From NCBI GenBank assembly GCA_027014115.1, contig JALWEJ010000045.1, positions 1 to 41,158 on the forward strand: 41,158 nucleotides of DNA, in the 5' to 3' direction. The stretch comes from Desulfurellales bacterium (GTDB lineage: Bacteria; Campylobacterota_A; Desulfurellia; Desulfurellales; Hippeaceae). The notes under the pieces are model-generated. The model was not told the DNA's origin. It searched no databases and was given only the letters and a program-made list of their open reading frames with translations. The first letter of the stretch is position 1. Each line of letters begins with the position of its first letter. The position numbers and the translations under genes were made by a program. Shown piece after piece: positions 8,334 through 41,056 of the stretch.

Positions 8334-8361
8334 CTCATCTCCCTTAGCGATGCCCACCTCA

Positions 8362-8455
8362 AGCAGAATTCCACACGCTCACACAACCTTGCCTACCGTT
8401 GCTTCCTTCCGGACCTGGCGGGGTTCGGCAAGGAGTGCGTCATGCGGGTCCGCAA
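8362..8455 (-). ncRNA. ffs: Small bacterial signal recognition particle RNA (4.5S)
   Basis: The minus strand holds the invariant SRP domain IV core GCCAGGTCCGGAAGGAAGCA, with the GGAA tetraloop and asymmetric internal loop. It is flanked by the complementary arms CCTTGCC and GGCAAGG and an outer imperfect helix (CGCAC with GTGTG, then ACGCC with TGTGG). The RNA pairs with Ffh for co-translational targeting. The ends are approximate. It lies directly upstream of dnaX, an order also known from Bacillus (scr-dnaX). Confidence 0.92.
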
Positions 8456-8479
8456 GAGATAGACATCGCCAAAAGAAAC

Positions 8480-8739: not shown

Positions 8740-9408
8740 CTATTTTAATAAGCTTTTCCATATCTCTTCGCCATCATGCCCAAGATCGCCTACAGCTCTT
8801 TCTGGGTGAGGCATAAGACCAAATACATTGCCTTTTTCATTACAGATACCTGCAATATTTCCAAGTGAGCCGTTTAGGTTAAATTCATCTTCTACACTTC
8901 CATCTTTTGATGAATACCTCAAGACAATCATGTTGTTATCTTCCAAATACTTAAGTTGATCAACTGAGCAGAAATAGTTACCCTCTCCGTGTGCTATAGG
9001 CATTTTCAAAACTTTTTTTTCTATATCTTGTGCAAAACCGCAAACGCTATTTTCAACTTTTAAATATACATCTTTATGGATAAATTTAAGGTTTGTGTTT
9101 TTCAGAAGTGTGCCGGTCAGAAGCCCTGATTCTGTTAAAATCTGAAATCCGTTGCAAATTCCAAGAACATAACCGCCGTATTTGGCAAAACTTTTAACTG
9201 CATTCATAATCGAAGAAAATTTTGCCAAAGCACCCGAGCGCAAATAATCACCATACGAAAAACCGCCGGGCAGTATAACGCAGTCAAAGTTTTTTAATTC
9301 ACCTTCATCATGCCATACAAACTCAGACTCAATACCCATACAGTCACAAGCATACTTGCAGTCAAAATCACAATTTGTCCCAAGAAATTGTATTATTGCC
9401 ACCCTCAA
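8740..9408 (-). CDS. purQ: Phosphoribosylformylglycinamidine synthase, glutaminase subunit
   Basis: PurQ releases ammonia from glutamine and passes it to PurL in step 4 of purine synthesis, in a PurLQS complex. The 222 residues form a class I glutaminase: QFLGTNCDFD start, PGGFSYGDYLRSG oxyanion region (about 47-59), nucleophile Cys in GICNGFQIL (about 83-91) and the His/Glu pair in MPHPERAVG (about 204-212). The start codon is TTG, overlapping the purS stop (TTGA), with AGGTGA about 8 nt upstream. purL is not in the window. Confidence 0.95.
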   Translation of the reverse strand: MRVAIIQFLGTNCDFDCKYACDCMGIESEFVWHDEGELKNFDCVILPGGFSYGDYLRSGALAKFSSIMNAVKSFAKYGGYVLGICNGFQILTESGLLTGTLLKNTNLKFIHKDVYLKVENSVCGFAQDIEKKVLKMPIAHGEGNYFCSVDQLKYLEDNNMIVLRYSSKDGSVEDEFNLNGSLGNIAGICNEKGNVFGLMPHPERAVGDLGHDGEEIWKSLLK

Positions 9409-9631: not shown

Positions 9632-10345
9632 TTAGATTCTTGAAATTTTCATCATTATTTTTTCATAGCCCTCTATCAAATCGCCTAAATCTTTTCTAAA
9701 TCTGTCTTTATCTAAAATTTCACCCGTTTCTTTATCCCAAAGTCTTGAACCATCAGGCGTAAATTCATCTCCGACAAGCAGATTACCGTCATTATCAAAT
9801 CCGAACTCTATCTTGAAATCTACAAGTGTAATTCCTGCTTTATCAAACCTTGTTTTTAAACACTCGTTTACTCTAAAAGCTATCTCCTTCATTTTATCAA
9901 GCGTAGCCTCGTCAGCCCACTTAAAAACCTTTATATGGTTTTCATTAATCATAGGGTCATCAAGCTCGTCGCTTTTATAGAAAAATTCCAAAATAGGCTC
10001 AGGCAGAGGCTCGCCCATCTTTAAACCAAGACGCTTTGCCAATGAACCAGCCACAACATTTCTTACAACAACCTCAACAGGAATCATTTTTAGTTTTTTT
10101 ACAACTATCTCTCTTCCGGAGTTTTCCTCAACAAAGTGGTTTGGTATACCGCACTCGTTCATCCACCCAAATATTTTAACGGTAATAGCCTTATTCATGG
10201 CTCCCTTTTCGTCTATTACGGCATGTTTTTTACCATTAAAAGCAGTTGCATCGTCTTTAAAGTATTCTATCAGAAGATTAGGGTCACTTGTCTCGTACAT
10301 TTTTTTGGCTTTACCTTCATATAAGAGCTTTGTTTCTTCAACCAT
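9632..10345 (-). CDS. purC: Phosphoribosylaminoimidazole-succinocarboxamide synthase
   Basis: PurC (SAICAR synthetase) joins aspartate to CAIR with ATP. The 237-residue protein starts KLLYEGKAKKMYETSDPN, has KDDATAFNGKKHA (about 30-42), the conserved MIPVEVVVRNVVAGSLAKR segment (about 87-105), LVDFKIEFG (about 175-183) and GDEFTPDGSRLWD (about 192-204). The ATG has AAGGAG 7-8 nt upstream. It is first in purC-purS-purQ and begins shortly after the terminator that closes hppA. Confidence 0.96.
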   Translation of the reverse strand: MVEETKLLYEGKAKKMYETSDPNLLIEYFKDDATAFNGKKHAVIDEKGAMNKAITVKIFGWMNECGIPNHFVEENSGREIVVKKLKMIPVEVVVRNVVAGSLAKRLGLKMGEPLPEPILEFFYKSDELDDPMINENHIKVFKWADEATLDKMKEIAFRVNECLKTRFDKAGITLVDFKIEFGFDNDGNLLVGDEFTPDGSRLWDKETGEILDKDRFRKDLGDLIEGYEKIMMKISRI

Positions 10346-10456: not shown

Positions 10457-12523
10457 CTAAAAACTTGTTAGAACTATCAAAATAGCAATAATGTTGATGA
10501 TTTTAATCATAGGGTTGATAGCAGGACCTGCTGTATCCTTGAGCGGATCTCCAACAGTATCTCCTGTTACCGCAGCCTTATGAGCCTCGCTGCCTTTCCC
10601 CCCGAAGTTTCCATCTTCTATATATTTTTTGGAGTTATCCCATGCACCGCCACCGCTTGTCATTGCAACCGCTAAAAAAAATCCTGTAATGATAGAGCCC
10701 ATAGAAAGAGCACCGAGAGCAATTTTACCGAAGAAAACATATATCAGAATAGGTCCCAAAACAGGAATCAAACCGGGGATTATCATTTTTTTCAACGATT
10801 CCCTTGTGACAATATCAACACAGGCCGCATAATCGGGCTTTGCTTTACCTTCCAATATACCCTTTATTGTTTTAAACTGTCTTCTAACCTCTTCAACCAT
10901 CATACCACCTGCCACACCGACAGCTTCCATACTCATGGCTCCAAAATAGAACGGTAAAAGCCCTCCAAGTAGCAATCCGACCAAAACAAGCGGATTGCTC
11001 AAGTCAAATGAGTGAATACCTGCTCCGATTGCCCTTGTATATTCAGCAAACAAAACAAGTGCGGCCAATGCGGCAGAACCTATTGCAAAACCTTTTGTAA
11101 CAGCCTTTGTTGTGTTGCCAACAGCATCAAGAGGATCTGTAACGGCTCTAACAGACTCATCGAGTTCAGCCATCTCTGCAATACCACCTGCATTATCTGT
11201 AATAGGGCCGTATGAGTCGATGGATATAACTATACCGGTTAATGAAAGCATCGATGCTGCAGCTATACCAATTCCATAGATTCCTGCCAATTTGTATGCA
11301 AAAAATATGCCAAGAGCAATAACAATTGCCGGAAAAGCGGGTGCTTTAAGCATCACAGCCATACCCTGAATAATATTTGTTGCATGTCCGGTAACAGAAG
11401 CCTTAGCAATAGATTTTACAGGCTCATACTCATAGGATGTATAATATTCCGTAATAAACATCAAAAGCCCCGTGATACCCATACCTATAACAGCTGCCAT
11501 AAATATATTTATATTAGTTATACGCAAATCGCCAATCGTTAAACCTGCTGAAAAATATTTATTTGTTGCAAACCATATTATACCGAGTGCTATAATAGCC
11601 GTAGCGAACATACCTTTATAAAAAGCACCCATAATATTTTCCGATTTTCCAAGCTTAACAAAAAAGACTCCTATGATTGCAGCCACAGATGCAATTGCAC
11701 CAATTAACAAAGGAAACATTGCAGCTATGCCTATACTACCCGGCTGGTCAAACAGTGTGTGCCCCAAAACCATTGAAGCAACCGTTGTAACTGTAAATGT
11801 TTCAAAAACATCAGCAGCCATTCCTGCACAGTCACCGACATTGTCACCAACATTGTCTGCAATAACTGCAGGGTTTCTGGGATCATCCTCGGGAATTCCG
11901 GCTTCAACCTTACCAACAAGATCAGCACCGACATCGGCGGCTTTTGTATATATTCCTCCACCGAGACGCGCAAAGACACTTATTAAGCTTGTTCCGAAAG
12001 CCAAGCCAATCAAAGCCTTTATAGTATGCTCTACAGGCTGTTTGAAAATATAAACAGCAACATAATAAAAACCTGAAATTGCCAAAAGACCAAAACCCGT
12101 TACCAAAAAACCTGTAACCGAGCCACCCCTAAAAGCCAAACTCAATGCTTTGGCAAGTCCGTTCTTAGCCTCCTGAGCTGTTTTAACATTTGTTTTAACA
12201 GCTATAACCATACCAATATAACCTGCCAAACCCGAAAGTATGGCTCCTGTCAAATATCCCAAAGCTGTCAAAAGACCAAAATGTTCGCTTTTGGCTCCCA
12301 ATGCCCACAATATAACGAATACAACCACAGCTACAACTGCTATGGCTCTGTACTCCCTTGATAGAAAAGCATAAGCACCTTCCTGAATGGCTTTTGCAAT
12401 CTCTTGCATTCTCTCATTGCCGCTGTCTTTAGACAAAACGCTAAATGCGGTAATAACGGCATAGCCAATGGACAAGAAAGATGCAGCAAACGTCAGATAG
12501 AGCATCATAGTTGTGTTGTCCAT
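10457..12523 (-). CDS. hppA: Membrane H+-translocating pyrophosphatase, K+-independent type
   Basis: A 688-residue integral membrane enzyme with about 16 helices that couples pyrophosphate hydrolysis to proton export, saving energy in slow-growing anaerobes. The catalytic loop around residues 197-240 carries DVGADLVGKVEAGIPEDDPR and DNVGDNVGDCAGMAADVFE; other conserved acidic motifs are SYGPITDNAGGIAEMAELD (437-455) and TGDTVGDPLKDTAGPA (653-668). The determinant of cation dependence is GNTTKA (469-474): Lys473 where K+-dependent enzymes have Ala, so I read it as K+-independent and H+-pumping. The gene directly upstream, 20 bp away, is a CBS/DHH pyrophosphatase-like protein, probably in the same transcript. 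Confidence 0.96.
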   Translation of the reverse strand: MDNTTMMLYLTFAASFLSIGYAVITAFSVLSKDSGNERMQEIAKAIQEGAYAFLSREYRAIAVVAVVVFVILWALGAKSEHFGLLTALGYLTGAILSGLAGYIGMVIAVKTNVKTAQEAKNGLAKALSLAFRGGSVTGFLVTGFGLLAISGFYYVAVYIFKQPVEHTIKALIGLAFGTSLISVFARLGGGIYTKAADVGADLVGKVEAGIPEDDPRNPAVIADNVGDNVGDCAGMAADVFETFTVTTVASMVLGHTLFDQPGSIGIAAMFPLLIGAIASVAAIIGVFFVKLGKSENIMGAFYKGMFATAIIALGIIWFATNKYFSAGLTIGDLRITNINIFMAAVIGMGITGLLMFITEYYTSYEYEPVKSIAKASVTGHATNIIQGMAVMLKAPAFPAIVIALGIFFAYKLAGIYGIGIAAASMLSLTGIVISIDSYGPITDNAGGIAEMAELDESVRAVTDPLDAVGNTTKAVTKGFAIGSAALAALVLFAEYTRAIGAGIHSFDLSNPLVLVGLLLGGLLPFYFGAMSMEAVGVAGGMMVEEVRRQFKTIKGILEGKAKPDYAACVDIVTRESLKKMIIPGLIPVLGPILIYVFFGKIALGALSMGSIITGFFLAVAMTSGGGAWDNSKKYIEDGNFGGKGSEAHKAAVTGDTVGDPLKDTAGPAINPMIKIINIIAILIVLTSF

Positions 12524-12542: not shown

Positions 12543-13841
12543 TTAAGAATTTACAGCTTTTTTAATTTCACCAATAACAGATTCAACACTTTTATCATAT
12601 AAATTACATATCCATTTAAGCATCTTTACATCGTTTTCTGTTGTTTTGTTTTTTGATAGGAAATCCGTATTATAGATTATACCGCCAGCCAACAACATAG
12701 CAGTAGATTTCGTTGGTTTTACACCGTTCTTTGCAAACTCATCAACAACAATGGACGATGTTGCACCCCAAGGTTCTATTCTATATCTTGTCACTAAACC
12801 TGTCTGTATGTCTCCAAGTCTGTGGTGGTCAATAATTTCCAATATATCACATCTCAAAATACCTTTGGGGGCATTTGTACTGCTTGAATGGTCTATCAAT
12901 ATGACTTTTCTTTTGTTGTATTTTATAATATCTGTTCTTGTAAGAATACCCAAAACATTTTTATCGTTATCTATAACAACAGCCGCCCTATGATTTGAAC
13001 CATATACAGCTTCTTTAATATCATCTATTAAATCATCATGCATAACAAAGCTTGTTGCTTTATCAATAAGCGTTTCGACAGGTGCACTCCACTCAATCAA
13101 ACCAGCTGTTGCAAAAGCATCATATTCAGACAAAATAATTGCAACATCCTTTCTTTTTGCCTCTTCAAGAAGTCTCTCGCTTATATTATAGCCATTTGAA
13201 ACTATGAGACATCTAACTCCCAACTCTATAGCTCTTTTTTGCAAATCTTCCCTATTTGCCAGAATCATAACTATATTTTCAGGATCAAACCGCTCAACAA
13301 CTTTCATTAAGCCTTCCGGATCTATAACACCCATTATGACATTTGCTATAAATACATCATCTTTTGAGGAGGAATACAAAACATCTCCACTTACTGCCTT
13401 TGAAATCATATCTATGCTCGTTTTTATCTTTCTGAATATATCCGGCATAACGGATGATATGCTTTTTCTTGCAATATCAACCATACCAAAGTAACCAAAA
13501 AATCGTTTATTTTCTTCAACAACAGGAACAACCAAGATATCGTTTTTTAACATGATTTTAAAGACTTCCGTAACAGGGGAATCCTTGCTGACCTGTATAA
13601 CATTCTTTGTCATTACATCTTCAACTCTCAATCTCAAATCCAAAATGTATTTCGGCAGTAAAGAACCAAACAGACTAAGTATCTTTTGTGTGCTTAAATC
13701 CATATTTCCGCTAACAGTAGCTATGTAATTGTTTTCTCTATCCAACGCATTCTTAAGCTCTGCATAACCTATGGTAGATGTAACACTGTCAACATCAGGG
13801 TTTTGCCTTCCTACCACATATATATTTTTTACCTCTCTCAT
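12543..13841 (-). CDS. CBS-DRTGG-CBS/DHH family II pyrophosphatase-like protein lacking DHHA2
   Basis: A 432-residue relative of CBS-domain manganese pyrophosphatases. The DHH domain is split (about 1-65 and 312-432) by CBS1 (about 73-130), a DRTGG-like domain (about 145-250) and CBS2 (about 255-312). DHH features remain: NPDVDS (14-19), IDHSS (316-320) and IDHHR (337-341). However, Arg12 stands where the family has the metal-ligand His (GHxNPDxDS), Asn391 seems to replace the ISD Asp, and the protein ends where the roughly 115-residue DHHA2 substrate-binding domain should begin. I infer that it is not a working pyrophosphatase but a nucleotide-sensing regulator, perhaps of HppA encoded 20 bp downstream. 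The domain call is firm; the role is a guess. Confidence 0.85.
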   Translation of the reverse strand: MREVKNIYVVGRQNPDVDSVTSTIGYAELKNALDRENNYIATVSGNMDLSTQKILSLFGSLLPKYILDLRLRVEDVMTKNVIQVSKDSPVTEVFKIMLKNDILVVPVVEENKRFFGYFGMVDIARKSISSVMPDIFRKIKTSIDMISKAVSGDVLYSSSKDDVFIANVIMGVIDPEGLMKVVERFDPENIVMILANREDLQKRAIELGVRCLIVSNGYNISERLLEEAKRKDVAIILSEYDAFATAGLIEWSAPVETLIDKATSFVMHDDLIDDIKEAVYGSNHRAAVVIDNDKNVLGILTRTDIIKYNKRKVILIDHSSSTNAPKGILRCDILEIIDHHRLGDIQTGLVTRYRIEPWGATSSIVVDEFAKNGVKPTKSTAMLLAGGIIYNTDFLSKNKTTENDVKMLKWICNLYDKSVESVIGEIKKAVNS

Positions 13842-13875: not shown

Positions 13876-13904
13876 CTTATATAAAATTTTTAATTTTTTT
13901 TCAA
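13876..13904 (-). promoter_or_regulatory. Probable sigma70 promoter of the CBS/DHH-hppA operon
   Basis: On the minus strand TTGAAA (13899-13904) and TATAAG (13876-13881) are 17 bp apart. The pair lies between the uspA stop and the CBS/DHH gene start at 13841. The region is A/T-rich, so chance matches are possible. Confidence 0.5.
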
Positions 13905-36678: not shown

Positions 36679-37473
36679 AAAAACCTCTCCAAAACCCATC
36701 GATGCATTTGTGCCTATATTCAGCAGACTTGATAAATACAGATACGGATAGAGAGCTTGAATTTCACCCTCAACGGAAAATCTGCATGTTATAGACGGTA
36801 TATTCATTGTTCTCTTTTTTCTGTTTGAATAACGCTTTATATTCTCATATCTGCACTCAATTATAGAAGTTTTGATTGCTGCATCAGGTAAAAAAACCTT
36901 ATAATTTTTATTTCCATAAAACTTATTGACAAGATATATTCTTTTTTCTACCGCCTTCAATATATCATAGAATGTCAAATTATCACATGAAATCATTTTT
37001 GAGTTCTGTTTTATGCGAACAAAACGAACTTCAATATTCAGTTTATCGGCCTCAAGATTTTTTTCTTCAATATCATTGGAATTTGTTAATACCTTTTTAT
37101 TAAACACACCTTTTGAGAATGGATTAACAAAGCCAGCCTTCTCGATATCAAGCTGCCTTTTAAAGGCATCAAGATACACTTCAGCAAATTCAGCAAAACT
37201 CCCGACAAACACAATTCTTAAGTAATCCCTCTCTGCCCTATTTATAACATACGGAGGAAATAAAACATCTTTGTAGCGCTCAAAAGAGAGCATATACAAG
37301 CATTTATCATTCAGTGGGCAGCTGTCACACTGCATATTCTTTAAAACACAAAATCTTCTTTTTAAATATCTACCAAGCATACCGCGGTAGTATGAGCCGT
37401 AAAACCTGTAGTTTTTCTCAACAGGCTTAAACTTTAAGCTTATAATGGAAAAATTGAAATTACCTATCTGCAT
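36658..37473 (-). CDS. cas6: CRISPR endoribonuclease Cas6
   Basis: A 271-residue Cas6 that would cut pre-crRNA within repeats. The C-terminal glycine-rich RAMP loop is NIGTNASMGFGEV (about 252-264). The N-terminal ferredoxin-like fold carries YYRGMLGRYLKRRF (28-41) and a four-cysteine group C42-x6-C49-x2-C52-x5-C58, typical of the COG5551-type Cas6 and possibly zinc-binding. Catalytic residues vary in the family and I cannot assign them. It overlaps the Can2-like gene upstream by 10 bp and is the last gene of the Csm operon. Confidence 0.9.
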   Translation of the reverse strand: MQIGNFNFSIISLKFKPVEKNYRFYGSYYRGMLGRYLKRRFCVLKNMQCDSCPLNDKCLYMLSFERYKDVLFPPYVINRAERDYLRIVFVGSFAEFAEVYLDAFKRQLDIEKAGFVNPFSKGVFNKKVLTNSNDIEEKNLEADKLNIEVRFVRIKQNSKMISCDNLTFYDILKAVEKRIYLVNKFYGNKNYKVFLPDAAIKTSIIECRYENIKRYSNRKKRTMNIPSITCRFSVEGEIQALYPYLYLSSLLNIGTNASMGFGEVFLDFKLS

Positions 37474-38600
37474 TGAAACCTTTCAAAAAATCCTTTTATT
37501 CCTTTATTTTCCACATCATCTCTAAAGACAAAATCTATACCGAGAAGGTTACTTCTTGCTAATAGTGACTTCTTTGTCTCTTTATTAAGAATTTTTTTAC
37601 TCAAACTTGCAAAATATGATTTTGCAGCAAGACCAAAATCCCTATTGAGCTGAGCAACCTTATACAAAGCGTTTGTTGTTTCATATCCCTCCATATTTCC
37701 CGTTTTGCACTCCACAACAAAAAGGTTATTGTCTTTAATGAAGACAACATCAAATTCATTCGGGACATCTTTTATATCTGTCTGCCTTTTAATCTTTACA
37801 TTTAATTTAATATCATCGATACATAATTCCTTGATTTCTGAGTAAACATATTCCTCAAACCATCCGCCGCTAAAAAAATCAACCCACCTTCTCTGTCTTA
37901 AGTTATATTTATCTATATCAATATTGATTTTGTTTAAAAGACGCTTTATTTCTCCATATTCCAAACTTTTGTTAATTTTTTTGAGTTCTTTGCCGTCTTT
38001 TCTGTATTTTCTTAAAATTTGTGTAACCTTATTGATAACACTATTATCTTTAATATAGGTTTCAAAAATAAATCTGCTTAAATCAATATCTAAAGCTTTT
38101 GAATCTTCATATTCCACATCAAGTGATTTTAAATATTCACCAACATCCATTTTGTAATTTATTTCTACATCAACAGCTTTCCCATTACCTCCAAGAGGAT
38201 AAATCTGTTTGTATGATGTGCTGCCTATCGGAAGATAAACAATGTTTGCGGTAAAAGATTTATCTTTAAAAAAGTTATAGGCTGCCAAAGACATAATTTT
38301 TGTTCCGCCTGTAATATTTACAAAAACCTTATCAAAATCGTTATTTTCAAAATATTCTTCGAGTTTTTTATTAACATCAAAAAGCATATTTTCATCAGTA
38401 AGCAGCTTGTCGTATTTCTTGTTGTCAAAAAAATCAAAACCTATCGCTTTGATTATTGTATCGCTTTTGCCCTGTTTCTCCATTTTCTCTGTCGTGATAA
38501 GCAAAACCTTGTCAAACCCTTCACCATATTTTAGCGAGTTTTTCAAATAAACAACATTGGGTATAGTTTGAGCGCTGACCAGAACAACCGTCAAATTCAT
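37464..38600 (-). CDS. can2: CARF-domain nuclease of the Can2/Card1 family
   Basis: A 378-residue cyclic-oligoadenylate-activated nuclease. The N-terminal CARF domain (1-145) starts LTVVLVSAQTIPN and has the ligand-loop motif VNITGGTKIMSLAAYNFF (94-111). The C-terminal PD-(D/E)xK domain (about 235-378, DUF1887 type) shows GGWFEEYV (245-252) with Glu249/250, NEFDVVF (281-287) with Asp284 and the E-x-K motif VVECKTGN (295-302) with Glu297 and Lys299, so it looks active. Characterised Can2/Card1 enzymes respond to cA4 and cut ssRNA and nick or cut DNA. The 373-378 residue length agrees. It starts directly after csx20. Confidence 0.92.
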   Translation of the reverse strand: MNLTVVLVSAQTIPNVVYLKNSLKYGEGFDKVLLITTEKMEKQGKSDTIIKAIGFDFFDNKKYDKLLTDENMLFDVNKKLEEYFENNDFDKVFVNITGGTKIMSLAAYNFFKDKSFTANIVYLPIGSTSYKQIYPLGGNGKAVDVEINYKMDVGEYLKSLDVEYEDSKALDIDLSRFIFETYIKDNSVINKVTQILRKYRKDGKELKKINKSLEYGEIKRLLNKINIDIDKYNLRQRRWVDFFSGGWFEEYVYSEIKELCIDDIKLNVKIKRQTDIKDVPNEFDVVFIKDNNLFVVECKTGNMEGYETTNALYKVAQLNRDFGLAAKSYFASLSKKILNKETKKSLLARSNLLGIDFVFRDDVENKGIKGFFERFQCR

Positions 38601-38601
38601 A

Positions 38602-39000
38602 TTAAATCCTTTCGTATTTTCTAAATCTCACATGTTCAAATTGAGAAACCTTTATCAACTTGCCGTTTTCCATTCTTTCAATTGTATTTCTCTTTGTTGT
38701 TGCATATATAGGAACAAGCGAGTGTTTAAAACAAAAATCCACAACAAGGCAAACAGCACCAAAATCACCCTGAACCAAAACCCAATCATTTGATTTAGCT
38801 TTGCTTTTTATCCACTCAAAAATCGGATTCAAATAACCATTCAAACTTTCCTTATTAGGCGGAACGCCGCTCCAGAGATTTTGTAAATTTCTTGGCAGAT
38901 ATTCAAAATTCGATATGCCCGTCCCTTTCAGCTCATCAATTTGAGCATCCGTAAGCTTATGAGAAAAGATGAGGAATATGGAATCAGTTGACTGTTTCAA
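38602..39000 (-). CDS. csx20: Csx20, ring-nuclease family CRISPR accessory protein
   Basis: A 132-residue protein that fits Csx20: FLIFSHKLTDAQIDELK (9-25), FEYLPRNLQNLWSGVPP (32-48), VLVQGDFGAVCLVVDFCF (74-91), PIYATTKRNT (97-106) and the closing HVRFRKYE (123-130). Csx20 proteins are small CARF-like proteins reported to degrade cyclic oligoadenylate, switching type III signalling off. The first 17 bp overlap csm5. Position between csm5 and the CARF nuclease fits a role in limiting Can2 and CalpL activity. Confidence 0.85.
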   Translation of the reverse strand: MKQSTDSIFLIFSHKLTDAQIDELKGTGISNFEYLPRNLQNLWSGVPPNKESLNGYLNPIFEWIKSKAKSNDWVLVQGDFGAVCLVVDFCFKHSLVPIYATTKRNTIERMENGKLIKVSQFEHVRFRKYERI

Positions 39001-40150
39001 TTTTCCCCTTCAACCAGCCCATAGGATAGCCGCCGGCAAGCCACAATGTGCTTTGGTTTTTTCCAATTTTGGATTCTCCTGTGTTGCCTATTTTTATTTT
39101 AATTTGCCTGCAGCCCTCTATCGTTTTTGAAACAGCACCGCCATGTTTTCCCAGCTTAACATAAAACATATTCTCTTCTATTTTAACAAGCTTGAAATTT
39201 TTCAATTTATCCAAATATGAATTGTGATACCTTTCTCCACCACTCATTTTAGTATTGGCATCAAAACCAAAATAATTATCTTCCCATTTATAAACCCAGT
39301 TTACATACATCCATCTCATCCAAGTTGATAATGTCTTTTCTGATATATTATTTAACGGTTTAAGCTGAAGGCTTTTTAATATTTTATTTAAATTGTCTAA
39401 AAATTGAGGATAAACTGCAATCTCTCCCTCAAATCTACTTTTTTTATCCACACATTCCAAAATATCGGGTATGTTTTTTATATCCCTAATGCCGTTTTTT
39501 GGTTTACCTATCGAAAATACCCTATAAACTTTTTGTTTTGTATCGCCAACAGGCAAAAAATCTGACACCTTAACAAATTTCATTATATCCTTTTGAGCGA
39601 AATTTCCCTGTCCGTCTATAATCAAAAAATCATTAAGCTTAGAACAATCTTTTTTAACCCTGCTTAACAAGGTTTTTCTGTCAATCTTTTCTTTGCTGTC
39701 TTTATCTTTAAACCGCTTCTCCAATCTTCTCATAAAAAAATCTATAACTGCATTTCTTAAAGCGCCTTTGATTGTTGAGCCGGGAATATAAACGTTATCA
39801 TCATAACGATTTCTTATAAATCTTGAAATTCCAGCCCTAAATGCCGCCGTTTGTTTTGTTATATAGCCAAATGCGCTGTGTTCAATATCAACACTGTATC
39901 TGTAATTATCATCAGCCAAACTCTTTATAAAGCCAAGAAGTGAATCGTTTGTCTTTGTGTAGCTTGATGCAAGTTTCGTGAATTCATCCAGTCTTCCGTC
40001 GCTCTCAACTCTATTCAATAACTTATTCTCATCTACAACGAAAAGTTTTTTCTCTTTATCATCGACAAAATATTCAAATGGGTAGTATTCCTCTCCGCAA
40101 CCAATATGGATGGGCGTAAAGGTTTCTAAGCTAACTTTAAATCTAAACAT
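38984..40150 (-). CDS. csm5: Type III-A effector subunit Csm5
   Basis: A 388-residue RAMP protein capping the crRNA 3' end side of the Csm complex. It begins RFKVSLETFTPIHIGCGEEY, the usual Csm5 start. YIPGSTIKGALRNAVIDFF (about 121-139) is the conserved RAMP-superfamily motif, and a glycine-rich loop is present near the C-terminus (GKHGGAVSKTIEG). The ATG follows the csm4 stop immediately. Length is normal. Confidence 0.93.
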   Translation of the reverse strand: MFRFKVSLETFTPIHIGCGEEYYPFEYFVDDKEKKLFVVDENKLLNRVESDGRLDEFTKLASSYTKTNDSLLGFIKSLADDNYRYSVDIEHSAFGYITKQTAAFRAGISRFIRNRYDDNVYIPGSTIKGALRNAVIDFFMRRLEKRFKDKDSKEKIDRKTLLSRVKKDCSKLNDFLIIDGQGNFAQKDIMKFVKVSDFLPVGDTKQKVYRVFSIGKPKNGIRDIKNIPDILECVDKKSRFEGEIAVYPQFLDNLNKILKSLQLKPLNNISEKTLSTWMRWMYVNWVYKWEDNYFGFDANTKMSGGERYHNSYLDKLKNFKLVKIEENMFYVKLGKHGGAVSKTIEGCRQIKIKIGNTGESKIGKNQSTLWLAGGYPMGWLKGKIETVN

Positions 40151-41056
40151 CTACTCCTCCACATCAATAAAAACAGGAATCATATATGAATTTTGATAAT
40201 GCCCATCATAATTAGAGACTCTCAATGCACTGCCGTAAACATCTTTTGTTTTATCAATCTTAAATATTGAGCCGCTTTTAAATAAAACAGCAGGGTTTTT
40301 AAACGGATTACCAAAAATTAAATCACCACCATGCTTTCCAAATTTCGTAAATGTCTTACCAAACAGAATTTCACAGTCTGTGCAGGGAATACCGCTTGAT
40401 AGGCTGACAAAGGCTGTTTTACCGTTTTTTTCTAAAATTTTTGGGGAATCCTCATATTTAACAACCCTAAATCTGCCCTTCCCCACCGACTTATCTTTTC
40501 CAAATCCGAATTTTCCTATACTTTCAAAAATCTGCTCAATATCTTTTCTTTTAATTTTTTTATCGTCGTATTTTGCATATATATCAACATTAACCATAAA
40601 AAATTTTTCCTGAGTGGTATATAATCCCGCATCGGTTGTATTACTTATGCGGTTTACGCTATTTTTCATACCGACAGAATTTTTAAAAGCAGACTTTTCA
40701 ACAATAAACTTTTCAAGACTAAACAAATCAACTTTCTCGTGCAACCAATTATCATCAAGCCTCACATAACGCGCCTTTTTGATGTTTTTCATCCTTATAT
40801 AATATTCATCACCAAATCTTTTTTTTATCTTGTCGTATTTTTGAGGCTTTACAAACGGCACTGCAATAGAACCTTCGGGAAATCCGTCGGAAAATACAAC
40901 AAAGGGACTGGTTTCAAAATCTTCTAAGACCTCTTTTAGTTTATCCTCACCGAAAATATACCTAAGCTCCCACGCAAACTGACCAAAAATAGTATCACTC
41001 TGCAGCTCAGAGCCAACAGGAGACTCAAATCCAACTGTTATTTTTAAACTCTGCAT
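40151..41056 (-). CDS. csm4: Type III-A effector subunit Csm4
   Basis: A 301-residue RAMP protein that binds the 5' crRNA tag and contacts Cas10 in the Csm complex. The start region LKITVGFESPVGSELQSDTI with TIFGQFAWELRYIFG (about 22-36) and the glycine-rich segment KFGFGKDKSVGKGRFRV are diagnostic, as is the central VEKSAFKNSVG region with NRISNTTDAGLYTTQEKFF (about 131-149). It ends immediately before csm5. cas10, csm2 and most of csm3 would lie to the right of the window. Confidence 0.93.
   Translation of the reverse strand: MQSLKITVGFESPVGSELQSDTIFGQFAWELRYIFGEDKLKEVLEDFETSPFVVFSDGFPEGSIAVPFVKPQKYDKIKKRFGDEYYIRMKNIKKARYVRLDDNWLHEKVDLFSLEKFIVEKSAFKNSVGMKNSVNRISNTTDAGLYTTQEKFFMVNVDIYAKYDDKKIKRKDIEQIFESIGKFGFGKDKSVGKGRFRVVKYEDSPKILEKNGKTAFVSLSSGIPCTDCEILFGKTFTKFGKHGGDLIFGNPFKNPAVLFKSGSIFKIDKTKDVYGSALRVSNYDGHYQNSYMIPVFIDVEE

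Follow-up and report, generated by a model that had tools for sequence, protein, structure and literature searches.

What might a relative of family II pyrophosphatases do for a cell after parting with much of its catalytic apparatus, and what keeps its gene beside that of a membrane pyrophosphatase? These questions are raised by an ORF at positions 12543..13841 (-) of the window (the whole 41,158-nucleotide stretch of DNA analyzed, from a bacterium of the class Desulfurellia), which encodes a truncated CBS-DRTGG-CBS relative of family II pyrophosphatases, 432 aa in length and predicted to be an inactive pseudoenzyme. Immediately downstream on the same strand lies hppA (10457..12523 (-); 688 aa; PF03030, E=7e-258), encoding a membrane H+-pyrophosphatase. 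We describe the anatomy of the truncated protein, its dispersal and gene context among related genomes, and the roles that these features suggest.

Anatomy of the truncated protein and its altered active site

The ORF is uninterrupted from its ATG to its TAA. Pfam models identify in its product a DHH domain (residues 6-388, interrupted by an insert; PF01368, E=1.9e-15), two CBS domains and a DRTGG domain, while DHHA2 (PF02833) is absent from the whole 432 aa. The CBS1-DRTGG-CBS2 insert lies inside the DHH domain. The first half of the latter (13656..13841 (-); aa 1-62) contains the Arg12 codon (13806-13808) and keeps Asp16 and Asp18. It is followed by CBS1 (13464..13625 (-); aa 73-126), where the ribose-phosphate motif, as defined elsewhere (PMC11172384), reads G-h-h-G-x-x-D with its Ser/Thr replaced; by a family-specific linker, DIARKSISSVMPDIFRKIKT (13419..13478 (-); aa 122-141); by DRTGG (13092..13406 (-); aa 146-250), which includes the family-specific invariant residues Gly247 and Glu250, with Trp251 just beyond; and by CBS2 (12912..13070 (-); about aa 258-310), whose ribose-binding motif G-h-h-T-R-T-D occupies aa 298-304 (12930-12950), its G, T, R, T and D being invariant in the family. 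The second half of the DHH domain (12627..12911 (-); aa 311-405) bears DHS at 317-319, DHH at 338-340 and the Asn391 codon at 12669-12671. The initial annotation had described retained CBS-DRTGG-CBS sensing domains and DHH motifs in a protein ending before DHHA2; both statements hold, as the Pfam domains are present, DHH 338-340 is invariant, and the stop after residue 432 is reached with no PF02833 match.

The C-terminus falls where DHHA2 would begin, and the SRKKQ signature is missing. In an AlphaFold model built from a 21-row family alignment (mean pLDDT 88), the closest solved structures are those of the regulatory region of the Clostridium perfringens pyrophosphatase (3l31/3l2b), and the DHH part resembles 1wpn, the isolated N-terminal DHH core of the Bacillus subtilis pyrophosphatase, with a target-normalised TM of 0.89; because of this match the protein is judged to stop at the DHH/DHHA2 boundary. 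Its scores fall under every cut-off of the curated NCBIfam models for CBS-PPases (NF011440-NF011449), for example 314.8 bits against a cut-off of 400 (NF011442) and 309.8 against 335 (NF011443).

The metal-ligand roles of DHH-domain residues have been described (PMC13219714, PMC7062746). The modelled active site of a Shewanella family II enzyme comprises His8, Asp12, Asp14, Asp72, Asp93, His94, His95 and Asp146, with Lys203, Arg293 and Lys294 contributed by DHHA2, and its metal center includes His8 and Asp146 (PMC13219714). When the metal-binding set of that enzyme (His8, Asp12, Asp14, Asp72, His94, Asp146) is mapped onto the truncated proteins, His8 has become Arg12 and Asp146 has become Asn391 in 22/22 family members, the other positions being kept, and the window protein, by alignment, has no equivalents of Lys203, Arg293 and Lys294. 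Among 93 aligned full-length homologues the corresponding residues are His in all 93 and Asp in all 93, which upholds the substitutions as first annotated. A third exchange, Ser319 (22/22 family members) for an Asn present in 90/93 full-length homologues, converts DHNE to DHS[SD]; the Glu that follows position 319 is lost, as is an S-P-T stretch. Residues D16, D18, D317, D338, H339 and H340 of the DHH domain are kept and invariant within the family, and two basic residues in this domain, Lys53 and Arg352, are newly invariant. If the numbering of dhPPase runs seven behind, Ser319 would correspond to Asn312, whose replacement by Ala in dhPPase switches ATP from activator to inhibitor (PMC11172384).

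These features support the loss of catalysis predicted at the outset, at the level of sequence: two metal ligands and the entire DHHA2 domain are gone, and their loss is fixed in 22 genomes. Since deletion of DHHA2 alone inactivated dhPPase, it is very likely, from anatomy and literature together, that the protein has lost pyrophosphatase activity. The family is best explained by a single loss of DHHA2 and the two ligands in an ancestor shared by three families of the class.

What the family has acquired is most apparent in the linker at residues 122-141. This is its most conserved stretch, with a mean entropy of 0.31 bits compared with about 0.9-1.9 in other segments, whereas the equivalent stretch of the enzymes, at 2.48 bits, is more variable than any domain compared. 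Invariance extends to 12 of the 20 positions (hypergeometric p 3e-5, about 0.013 when corrected for roughly 413 windows). Synonymous codon variation in the linker is ordinary (0.49 versus 0.53), which places the constraint on the protein and excludes a DNA-level cause of the conservation. Model confidence is low at 128-136. A basic, invariant and flexible linker of this kind suggests a partner-docking or switch site gained by the family.

Distribution and association with hppA

Of 25 genomes of Desulfurellia, a class of sulfur-reducing bacteria that comprises Hippea, Desulfurella and their relatives, 22 encode the truncated protein, with a length of 428-434 aa. Carriers include all 19 genomes of two families, f1 (that of the window's own genome) and f2, and all three of a third, f3; it is found in none of the three genomes of family f4. 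Outside the class, no short form was detected among 386 genomes, all other homologues being full length (536-607 aa), and the best 80 relatives listed in a GTDB scan are likewise full length outside the class, cuts at contig ends aside. Identity to full-length homologues is about 30% across 400 aa. In a phylogenetic tree the family forms one clade with support of 100/100 and a long stem; descent from the class's own full-length copy finds no support there, as the clade is not placed as sister of those copies.

In the window hppA starts 19 bp downstream of the pseudoenzyme stop codon, and this gap holds its own ribosome-binding site, GGAGGAGGG; the initial annotation was correct in placing the truncated gene directly upstream of hppA, its figure of 20 bp being one too many. 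The two genes adjoin in 19/22 carriers, which comprise 19/19 genomes of f1 and f2 and 0/3 of f3. The gap in f1 and f2 measures about 13-30 bp (by aligned start), and 13-21 bp in all but one partial match. The pair is retained even where the remaining cluster has broken up. A search of relatives for the same truncation beside hppA thus recovered it across two families, and the truncation itself in a third as well, although all 22 genomes belong to one lineage, and the adjacency represents one inherited and retained event rather than 19 independent ones.

A predicted promoter precedes the pair at 13876..13904 (-), with a -35 hexamer TTGAAA (13899-13904), a 17-nt spacer and a -10 hexamer TATAAG (13876-13881). 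A generic promoter scan overlooked it because the -10 hexamer does not end in T. The pattern TTGAAA-N17-TATAAR lies 22-34 nt upstream of the pseudoenzyme ATG in 16/16 f1 loci, a conservation of both position and sequence that substantiates the promoter originally proposed in front of this gene. With this promoter before the pair and a gap holding little beyond a ribosome-binding site, the simple reading is that the pseudoenzyme and hppA share one transcript. The leader yielded no Rfam match and no strong inverted repeat that would point to an RNA element.

Downstream of hppA the next gene in the window is purC (9632..10345 (-)), and purQ (8740..9408 (-)) belongs to the same downstream cluster. 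In the families examined purC, purS and purQ come after hppA or after the pseudoenzyme, the f2 cluster being without purC, and a Hippea- or Desulfurella-type order runs pseudoenzyme-hppA-(purC)-purS-purQ-hemL-atpZ-atpI-atpB-atpE. In clusters of this kind (L136:6756-14811 and L135:5402-12622), the gene for the PPi pump stands together with purine genes and with those for the F0 sector of ATP synthase. The window's genome has atpB on a different contig, and there tRNA genes, SRP RNA and dnaX come after purQ. The small SRP RNA (8357-8456 (-)) sits directly before the dnaX ORF and touches its listed GTG start; the true start of dnaX may lie further inside the ORF. At the far end of the window, a Card1-like CARF nuclease adjoins RAMP-type genes (37464-38600 and 38984-41056) and probably belongs to a type III CRISPR locus.

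Gene order in the remaining families bears on the identity of a partner. The f3 locus contains no hppA; purC-purS-purQ-hemL-F0 comes straight after the pseudoenzyme gene, whose product carries the residue switches and the invariant linker seen in f1 and f2. The HppA of these genomes is encoded elsewhere and shares 46% identity with the operon HppA, compared with 62-64% with HppA of distant lineages. It bears the signature GNTTAAIGKGF of the K+-dependent type of membrane pyrophosphatase in place of GNTTKAVTKGF, the signature of the K+-independent type that the window's hppA has. In genome G019, for instance, a distant hppA of K+-dependent type (L138:5966-7972) lies away from the operon, which lacks the ancestral hppA of K+-independent type. 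An additional feature of f3 is an upstream gene that overlaps the start of the pseudoenzyme gene and encodes a 350-aa protein containing several 4Fe-4S domains (L137:6073-7125). In f4 the arrangement is hppA-purC-purS-purQ, with an orthologous hppA and without the pseudoenzyme, which also weighs against a role confined to HppA. HppA appears to have been exchanged in the f3 lineage while the pseudoenzyme was retained. The link to HppA is strong in two families and is not obligatory; because f3 keeps the protein alongside a replaced, distant HppA, binding to the operon HppA is not its whole function.

The chief competing explanation is accordingly that the protein is a dead adenylate sensor whose partner is a different product of the cluster or some soluble protein, such as F0 components (AtpZ, AtpI, a, c), a purine enzyme or a target without linkage, its adjacency to hppA reflecting only an operon for energy metabolism. 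F0 and the purine enzymes are the main candidates here because of the f3 gene order, in which the run from the pseudoenzyme through the pur genes and hemL to F0 persists without hppA while the protein and its linker remain invariant, and the continuation of Hippea- or Desulfurella-type clusters into the pur, hemL and F0 genes points the same way. Separation of atpB onto a different contig in the window's genome argues against it, as do genera g1 and g2, which keep the pseudoenzyme-hppA pair with the pur genes behind, so that hppA is the closer companion in two families. We regard a partner other than HppA as possible but rather unlikely.

Less likely readings: a new activity, mixed oligomers or decay

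A different view of the altered active site is that the remaining Asp and His residues, together with Arg12 and Asn391, hydrolyze some other phosphate compound, using one metal or none. Invariance of D16, D18, D317, D338, H339 and H340 favors this view, and the newly invariant Lys53 and Arg352 would fit a re-shaped anion site. Two ligands of the transition-metal center have nevertheless been lost, the Lys and Arg residues by which DHHA2 holds the substrate are absent, and removal of DHHA2 was sufficient to end PPi hydrolysis in dhPPase (PMC10742508); a new activity of this kind therefore seems improbable.

The complement of pyrophosphatases in these genomes addresses a further alternative, in which the truncated protein is a regulatory subunit of mixed oligomers with a full-length CBS-PPase of the same cell. 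Such enzymes, with DHHA2, are encoded in the window's genome and in 12 further genomes of the class, and the CBS and DHH folds from which the tetramer is built are common to both proteins. The full-length CBS-PPase of the window's genome (contig C103; G000:C103, L002:284-2014), which has DHHA2 and all catalytic motifs, is encoded upstream of a thiC-like gene; it contains the only DHHA2 match in that genome, and a search for DHHA2 encoded elsewhere as a split subunit, a possibility raised initially, returned nothing but this enzyme, so that a split subunit is rejected. Full-length CBS-PPase is missing from several near-complete sister genomes. DHHA2 is absent from 12/25 genomes of the class, including the single-contig G005 and the near-complete G007, G010, G011, G019, G021 and G023, and no family I PPase occurs in any of the 25; the pseudoenzyme thus persists in at least seven near-complete genomes (those just named) in which HppA is the sole recognized PPase. 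Retention of the protein in near-complete genomes without any DHHA2 protein speaks against mixed oligomers, as does its identity of only about 30% to the full-length CBS-PPase, of which it is not a sister in the tree. By alignment, moreover, the positions of the dhPPase interface residues Tyr124 and Glu126 are taken by Ser127 and Ser129, both of them invariant or almost so in the family. We consider this alternative quite improbable.

That the ORF is a non-functional remnant or an artefact of gene modelling, for which nothing speaks beyond the missing catalytic parts, is scarcely credible given its intact state, constant length and strong purifying selection across 22 genomes of three families (dN/dS 0.02-0.09 in f1 and f2, where hppA is adjacent, and 0.11-0.17 in f3, values that are rough, dS being near saturation in several pairs); a pseudogene or sequencing error is likewise ruled out by the 22 intact orthologues.

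A candidate nucleotide-responsive regulator

We reason that the protein probably acts in regulation and not as an enzyme. This accords in part with the initial annotation, which read it as a nucleotide-sensing pseudo-enzyme tuning the membrane pyrophosphatase or its expression: lost catalysis, retained sensing domains, conserved proximity to hppA, the promoter and the absence of a split DHHA2 subunit speak for that reading, whereas nucleotide binding and an action on HppA are its predicted parts. Its nucleotide-site residues offer a mixed picture: the GhhTRTD motif of CBS2 is invariant, that of CBS1 is partly degenerate (Ser/Thr replaced by Gly), and the site that matches Lys100 of dhPPase varies. 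An engineered dhPPase lacking DHHA2 is inactive and still tetrameric, and its binding of Mant-AMP and Ap4A equals or exceeds that of the intact enzyme (PMC10742508). From this precedent and the domain anatomy, the truncated protein is predicted to bind adenine nucleotides, and likely does so, although the partly degenerate CBS1 motif leaves binding not assured.

Taken as a whole, the explanation that we favor is that of a catalytically dead adenylate sensor for which HppA is the leading candidate partner on grounds of linkage, the conserved promoter before the pair and metabolic logic; we advance it tentatively, at slightly less than an even chance. After loss of DHHA2 and two metal ligands, the protein would have been retained for a non-catalytic role. 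Its Bateman (CBS) module would bind AMP/ADP versus ATP/ApnA, while DHH and CBS surfaces would hold it in an oligomer. A nucleotide-driven change of shape could then be relayed, probably via the CBS1-DRTGG linker that has become invariant, to some partner involved in coupling PPi to energy; were this partner the HppA made from the same transcript, proton pumping would consume PPi as the cell's energy state dictates. That HppA is the direct target is conceivable, and we propose it with reserve. More speculative is the proposal that the protein serves as a dedicated nucleotide-responsive regulator of a bacterial proton-pumping pyrophosphatase, the regulatory half of a soluble PPase sensing the adenylate state and setting the share of PPi energy that enters the proton gradient. 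Control of HppA, if it occurs, would explain how pump-only cells, with HppA as sole recognized PPase, avoid wasting or starving the pump, and the family-specific linker would offer a short candidate interaction site. In the open-licence literature we found no description of a natural CBS-PPase lacking DHHA2, nor of any protein dedicated to regulating a bacterial membrane pyrophosphatase.

Three known systems invite comparison. With the CBS-PPases of Moorella thermoacetica, Desulfitobacterium hafniense and C. perfringens, the truncated protein shares a DHH domain split by a CBS1-DRTGG-CBS2 insert; it differs from them in being without DHHA2, in its three substitutions (Arg in place of a metal-binding His, Asn in place of a metal-binding Asp, Ser where DHNE has Asn), and in its new invariant linker. 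A second comparison is with the dhPPase lacking DHHA2 (PMC10742508), in which the same domain set was made by laboratory deletion, so that the family amounts to a natural repeat of a construct made to study CBS regulation; the engineered protein has intact metal ligands and no partner, whereas the natural one has further fixed substitutions and a cluster with hppA. The nearest functional analogue, and a precedent for the proposed role, is AcuB of B. subtilis, which has CBS domains but no catalytic function and inhibits AcuC, the product of a neighboring gene in its operon; Ap4A strengthens this inhibition (PMC13039410). AcuB carries CBS and ACT domains without DHH or DRTGG, and its target has been shown experimentally; in being a non-catalytic CBS protein encoded in the operon of its target and responsive to an alarmone, it exemplifies a mode of action in which the truncated protein may work alike.
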